From contig JAAZEM010000118.1 in NCBI GenBank assembly GCA_012512265.1, forward strand, positions 1-64,000: DNA of 64,000 nucleotides, given 5' to 3'. Source of the DNA: Armatimonadota bacterium (GTDB taxonomy: Bacteria > Armatimonadota > JAAZEB01). The position numbers and the translations under genes were made by a program. The notes beneath the pieces were generated by a model, which searched no databases, was not told the DNA's origin, and saw nothing but the letters and a program-made list of their open reading frames with translations. Shown one piece after another: positions 3,079 through 4,158 of this stretch. Position 1 is the first letter of the stretch. Every line of letters begins with the position of its first letter.

Positions 3079-4158
3079 TCAGCGGCCCGATTCCCCCTTT
3101 TTTGGCAGCCGCGCGATCATCTTGCACAGCTTCTTGGCCTGCTGCTTGCGCTCTCGCTCCGCCTTCCGGTCGCGCGTCGACTCCTGGTATGCCAGCTCCC
3201 GACGCATTCGCCGGTAGTTCTCAAACCGCGCCGGATCCAGCGTGCCATCACTCAGTGCCGCTCGGACCCGGCATCCTGGCTCGCGCTCGTGCTGGCAATC
3301 GGCATAGCGACACCCGAACGCCAACTCCTCAATCTCTGGGAACGCCTCCGCGACCCCCTCCCATGCGTCCCCGATCTGCAGCTCCCGTATACCTGGAGTA
3401 TCCACCACGAGCGCGCCCGAAGGGAGGAGAAAGATCTGGCGGGAGGTCGTCGTATGCCGGCCCTTGCTATCGCCGGCACGCACCGGCTGCGTTGACTGTA
3501 CCTCCTCTCCCAAGAGGTGGTTGATCAGCGTCGATTTCCCCACGCCAGATGACCCAAGCAGCGCCAAGGTGCGCCGCGGGACGAGGTATTGGGCAAGCGC
3601 ATCCAGGCCCTCGCCCGTGAGCGCGCTCACCGCGTGGATCGGGGCGATCCCAGCCACCGCCCGTGCCTCGGCAAGCCGCTCCTCGAGCTGCGAACAGAGA
3701 TCCGCCTTCGTGAGCAGCACCACTGGATCGGCGCCGCTCTGCCAGGCGACCGCCAGGTAGCGCTCGATGCGGCGCAGGCGGTAGTTGTCATCCAGGCCAA
3801 CGGCCAGGAAAAGCGTGTCGATATTCGCGGCCACCGGCTGCTCGCCAGGCTTGGTCCCAGCCTCCTTCCGCGACAGCCAGCTCCGACGCGGCAGAATGCC
3901 GTGTACCAGCGCCTTTGGCGGCTCTTCAGGAAGTATCTAAAGGATGACCCAGTCGCCCACGACCGGCAGCTCGTCTCGCCGCGTGGCGGCATGCAGCACC
4001 TTGCCGGGCAGGATAGCCGCCATCTCCCCGGCCTCCGTTTGCACCCGGTACTGGCCCTTATGCTCGGCGATCACTCGTCCGGGCACATGATCCTCGCCCG
4101 CCTGCGCCGCGAAATGCCCGGCGTAGAACCCGCTCCATCCTAGCGCATCCAACCGCAT
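3079..4158 (-). pseudogene. rsgA: Ribosome small-subunit GTPase RsgA, intact except for one in-frame TAG at codon 74
   Basis: The full frame of 360 codons reads as RsgA (YjeQ): an N-terminal OB-fold to GDWVIL, the circularly permuted GTPase with LLTKADL (G4), SALTGEG (G5), GSSGVGKST (P-loop) and DTPGI (G3), and the C-terminal zinc motif with CRYADCQHEREPGC. RsgA helps mature the 30S subunit. A single TAG at 3937-3939 follows GDWVIL; the same frame resumes at once with ILPEEPPKALVHGILPRR, which is what an RsgA linker looks like. Nothing else is damaged. From the last in-frame ATG at 3834 a 251-residue GTPase without the OB-fold could still be made. It is either a young pseudogene, a sequence error or a suppressed codon. 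Confidence 0.88.

Follow-up and report, generated by a model that had tools for sequence, protein, structure and literature searches.

A single in-frame TAG in an otherwise intact rsgA frame of an Armatimonadota bacterium

RsgA, also known as YjeQ or EngC, is a ribosome-assembly GTPase whose form of about 350 residues is covered by the families TIGR00157 and PF03193, and its loss is usually costly for growth. Bacteria in which UAG is reassigned or suppressed are known, and what they share with the locus described here is an in-frame TAG in a conserved gene. With regard to loss of the protein, a passage in one study describes an E. coli ΔrsgA strain as viable enough for genetic crosses (PMC4245954), and part of another reports EngC/RsgA to be missing from three hemoplasmas among the Mollicutes (PMC4014445). 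The literature that we searched contained no report on rsgA with UAG readthrough, nor on an rsgA pseudogene with a premature stop.

The interrupted rsgA frame

The window, a stretch of 64,000 nucleotides, carries on its minus strand a frame at 3079..4158 that starts with an ATG at 4158, ends with a TGA at 3081-3079 and comprises 359 codons plus this stop, with one interruption. It was delimited by translation, family matches and alignment with relatives. The interruption is a TAG at codon 74 (3937..3939, minus strand), which reads cta on the plus strand, confirming the lone in-frame TAG of the original prediction. Judged from its position in the family, codon 74 presumably lies in the OB-fold region, between two of its strands. 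The part 5′ of the TAG (3940..4158, minus strand) has 73 codons, as supported by coding signal and alignment, and would be the sole product expected from rsgA if termination is normal. The part 3′ of it (3082..3936, minus strand) has 285 codons and, by PF03193 and alignment, includes the GTPase domain in full together with the Cys/His zinc motif.

The identity of the frame is clear from its family matches. Residues 88-262 match the Pfam family PF03193 (RsgA_GTPase) at 1.9e-49 (168 bits against a cut-off of 30), and the NCBIfam model TIGR00157 scores 148 bits against a cut-off of 100. The frame thus has the circularly permuted GTPase domain with scores over both cut-offs, and the invariant motifs are present; we take these to be TKAD, GSSGVGKST, GRHTTT, DTPG and the Cys/His zinc motif. 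When the TAG is masked, the frame can be aligned over its full length with the RsgA of relatives, at identities of 61% and below, so the claim that RsgA is encoded on both sides of the stop holds. The whole domain order and all motifs of the approximately 350-residue form are shared; what the window gene does not have is an uninterrupted frame for the full protein. The genome to which the window belongs (a draft of 5.03 Mb and 219 contigs, with 97% completeness and 6% contamination) holds no second rsgA over the Pfam cut-off, three weak matches being short and scoring about 20-23 bits.

Apart from the TAG, the frame contains no further stop or frameshift. Its GC content by codon position is 0.77/0.45/0.81 before the TAG and 0.72/0.48/0.78 after it, and its relative codon preference is -0.353 before and -0.364 after, against a genome median of -0.355. 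We also aligned the window gene with 89 relatives, nine taken from genomes of the phylum and 80 from a search of genome contigs. At the 74 columns conserved at 90%, the window gene differs from the commonest residue in four; across all 90 sequences the median is two, and nine of the 89 relatives exceed the window gene. A small alignment, in which Trp, His and Phe appeared to be replaced downstream of the stop, had suggested relaxed selection, and this suggestion fell with the larger one. It was therefore rightly noted from the start that nothing else in the gene is decayed: a single stop without further decay is what a recent nonsense pseudogene would show, a reading that needs no intact copy elsewhere. 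Own-phylum genomes and a single-sequence scan of genome contigs yielded no relative close enough for a dN/dS test, the nearest RsgA being 61% identical.

None of the 89 relatives has a TAG at the position of codon 74, so an in-frame TAG as a trait of the RsgA family was rejected. The column is variable and mostly polar, with R in 19 relatives, Q in 17, S and D in 12 each, T in seven, E in six, A and K in five each, N and H in two each, and V and I in one each. Because Q occurs in 17 of the 89 and CAG is the commonest codon in this variable column (11/89), the proposed origin of the TAG from CAG by one change is plausible on comparative grounds. The nearest relative, however, has E at this position, and GAG is likewise one change from TAG.

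UAG as a stop signal in the genome

If UAG were reassigned or suppressed, one would look for a cognate tRNA, a lost release factor or a rarity of TAG as terminator. Release factor RF1 is present in the genome (509.8 bits against a cut-off of 423). Among the 45 tRNA genes found with the Rfam model, all of which ARAGORN read as having ordinary anticodons, there is none with a CUA anticodon, although one could be missed in a draft that is 97% complete. A pattern search of the whole genome for tRNAs with a CTA anticodon gave seven matches, against 25 for the reversed control, and none is plausible: six fall within tRNAs whose anticodons are different, and the one left, C124:11797, is absent from the Rfam matches. 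The search for a CUA suppressor tRNA, named as a check when the stop was first noticed, thus came back empty both among the detected genes and by pattern. As a side observation, tRNA-Ile(GAT) and tRNA-Ala(TGC) are not among the 45 detected tRNAs either; the assembly probably lost them together with the rRNA operons.

TAG is also a common terminator. It ends 326 of 890 long open reading frames in the genome and four of seven checked genes in the window, those with low ends at 577, 2299, 4266 and 5119. A back-up in-frame stop within 10 codons follows 44 of 323 TAG terminators compared with 102 of 558 TGA or TAA terminators, and hence TAG is not safeguarded by back-up stops. Together with RF1, these counts bear out the argument in the original prediction that TAG serves as a normal stop here, against reassignment.

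The immediate surroundings of the rsgA TAG were examined as well. The RNA around it folds slightly better than shuffled versions (z -2.0, with 7 of 200 as good), which is weak, and a programmed-readthrough structure was rejected. The base that follows the TAG is A, not U; a passage in one report states that a U after the stop reduces readthrough (PMC5289835).

Other interrupted genes

We scanned 2,236,545 of the 5,026,566 bases (44%) of the genome for stops flanked by coding signal. The first three versions of the scan were noisy and missed rsgA itself. From the last came 135 candidates, which were picked over by eye; seven, rsgA included, were scanned against families, and the rest were judged by eye to be normal neighbours or chance. 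Within this 44%, the scan found two near-pristine genes besides rsgA that are broken by one TAG with a family match that spans it. One is gltB, for the large subunit of glutamate synthase, with a TAG at L274:11959-11961 on the minus strand (C158:31959 in the genome), codon 828 of an otherwise open frame of 1795 codons; NF008730 matches residues 251-1777 of the read-through frame, and the gene is single-copy in the genome as judged by its central domain. Of 11 relatives, 10 extend to this position, where they have W, W, Q, V, Q, V, G, P, S and G, with W (Trp) in the two nearest. The other is a phage- or plasmid-like DUF932 gene, with one match in the genome, whose TAG is codon 99 (L085:16448-16450, plus strand; C84 in the genome) and which matches TIGR03299 over residues 16-253. 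Its stop presumably sits where the family has Gln.

The remaining family-scanned candidates are of other kinds. In a patatin-like gene (L086:18650), a TGA lies 55 codons before the gene end, beyond the matched domains as judged by eye. A dnaE-like TAG case (L202:2854) proved to be a decayed fragment and was removed from the count: L202:2101-3400 is a remnant resembling DNA polymerase III alpha, with broken frames, in which the TAG is part of general decay, and it lies beside a frame that we take to be OsmC-like. A prepilin-like case (L266:8133) was omitted, since its family matches flank the stop without crossing it, and the candidate at L250:5292 had no family match.

The broken genes accordingly number three with TAG and one with TGA near its end. 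Under the codon use of this GC-rich genome, 0.60-0.61 of random single-base nonsense changes would give TAG whatever the transition bias, so that three TAG in four is about as expected by chance (P about 0.48), although numbers this small would also be compatible with a leaky UAG; counting the prepilin-like case makes it four TAG of five (P about 0.35). Stops inside genes are uncommon in the genome, as none of its 52 matches to the ABC-ATPase domain PF00005 holds one.

Origin of the rsgA stop and comparison with known systems

In our judgement the rsgA TAG is probably a nonsense mutation of the ordinary sort that arose recently in a dispensable gene with no second copy. This reading draws on the facts that the gene is the sole RsgA, that RF1 and ordinary tRNAs are present with TAG as an ordinary terminator, that no relative has the TAG, and that loss of the protein is tolerated. 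In 21 of 61 genomes of the phylum no RsgA scores over the cut-off, from which we conclude the tolerance; among the 46 genomes with at least 90% completeness and no more than 5% contamination, 14 lack it. Also consistent with a nonsense mutation are the two other lone-TAG genes, where relatives have differing residues, as scattered point mutations would give; the lost residues seem to differ, with Trp in gltB and Gln or another residue in rsgA, and such mutations account for this better than a single suppressor does. A single substitution, perhaps C to T in a CAG, would have created the stop at a tolerant site near the N-terminus; ribosomes would halt there with RF1 and release a 73-residue peptide with no GTPase, and the remaining frame would still be intact because there has been too little time for decay. 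We infer that the cells themselves carry the TAG and make no useful RsgA. Three points count against this reading. The pristine rest of the gene is also expected from a sequencing error or from a functional read-through gene, gltB is a second sole-copy gene with the same kind of stop, and loss of rsgA usually comes at a cost to growth.

The main rival, unlikely but with real weight, is that the TAG is absent from most cells, being a consensus error or the allele of a minority strain in a mixed draft assembly. The intactness of the rest of rsgA would follow at once, single stops in two other conserved genes would be of a piece with it, and an assembly both fragmented (219 contigs) and mixed (about 6% contamination) offers the occasion; the absence of stops from all 52 ABC-ATPase matches, on the other hand, indicates that errors are not rife. 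We regard it as improbable that a near-cognate tRNA, for example tRNA-Gln, reads UAG often enough to supply the RsgA needed, and likewise the products of gltB and the DUF932 gene. Such readthrough would suit the intact flanks of the three genes with one TAG each, two of which were shown to be the only copies for conserved functions, as well as a position in rsgA that accepts many residues and the A after its stop; it is opposed by RF1, by the missing CUA tRNA, by the many genes that end in TAG without back-up stops, by a TAG share among broken genes no different from chance and by the lack of a strong RNA structure around the stop. Improbable, too, is the proposition that all three genes are functional despite their internal TAG, with an ordinary near-cognate tRNA reading UAG beside RF1. 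A leaky UAG here would raise the question of how single-copy core genes can survive with a stop inside them in the presence of RF1. Hardly credible is that translation starts anew within the gene and makes the 3′ part on its own, even though its open frame contains the whole Pfam GTPase domain: the first ATG, GTG or TTG is a GTG at 3834, 35 codons past the TAG and within the conserved EQPVAANID block, so that neither the N-terminal domain nor the beginning of the GTPase domain would be part of the product, and reading the sequence by eye revealed no ribosome-binding motif at the proper distance. Of the three possibilities raised in the original prediction, that the lesion is recent, erroneous or read through, the results are compatible with the first two, and the third is spoken against by RF1, the tRNA complement and the TAG terminators.

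The approximately 350-residue form of RsgA is patchy within the phylum of the window and scattered over distant phyla, among them Bacillales, Cyanobacteria, Acidobacteria, Phenylobacterium and others; judging from these sequences, it is distributed as if often lost or transferred.

Compared with known systems, the window gene is unlike its RsgA relatives in the one in-frame TAG, and its genome differs from those of bacteria with reassigned or suppressed UAG in keeping RF1, in having no detected CUA tRNA and in using TAG as a common terminator. With the ordinary bacterial pseudogene made by a single nonsense change it shares one stop, an intact remainder, the lack of a second copy and a dispensable function, and nothing tested sets it apart from that kind. 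Most likely, then, the rsgA TAG is an ordinary event rather than a new way of reading the code, and, if so, it represents another ribosome-assembly GTPase gene being lost in a group where a third of the examined genomes lack it.
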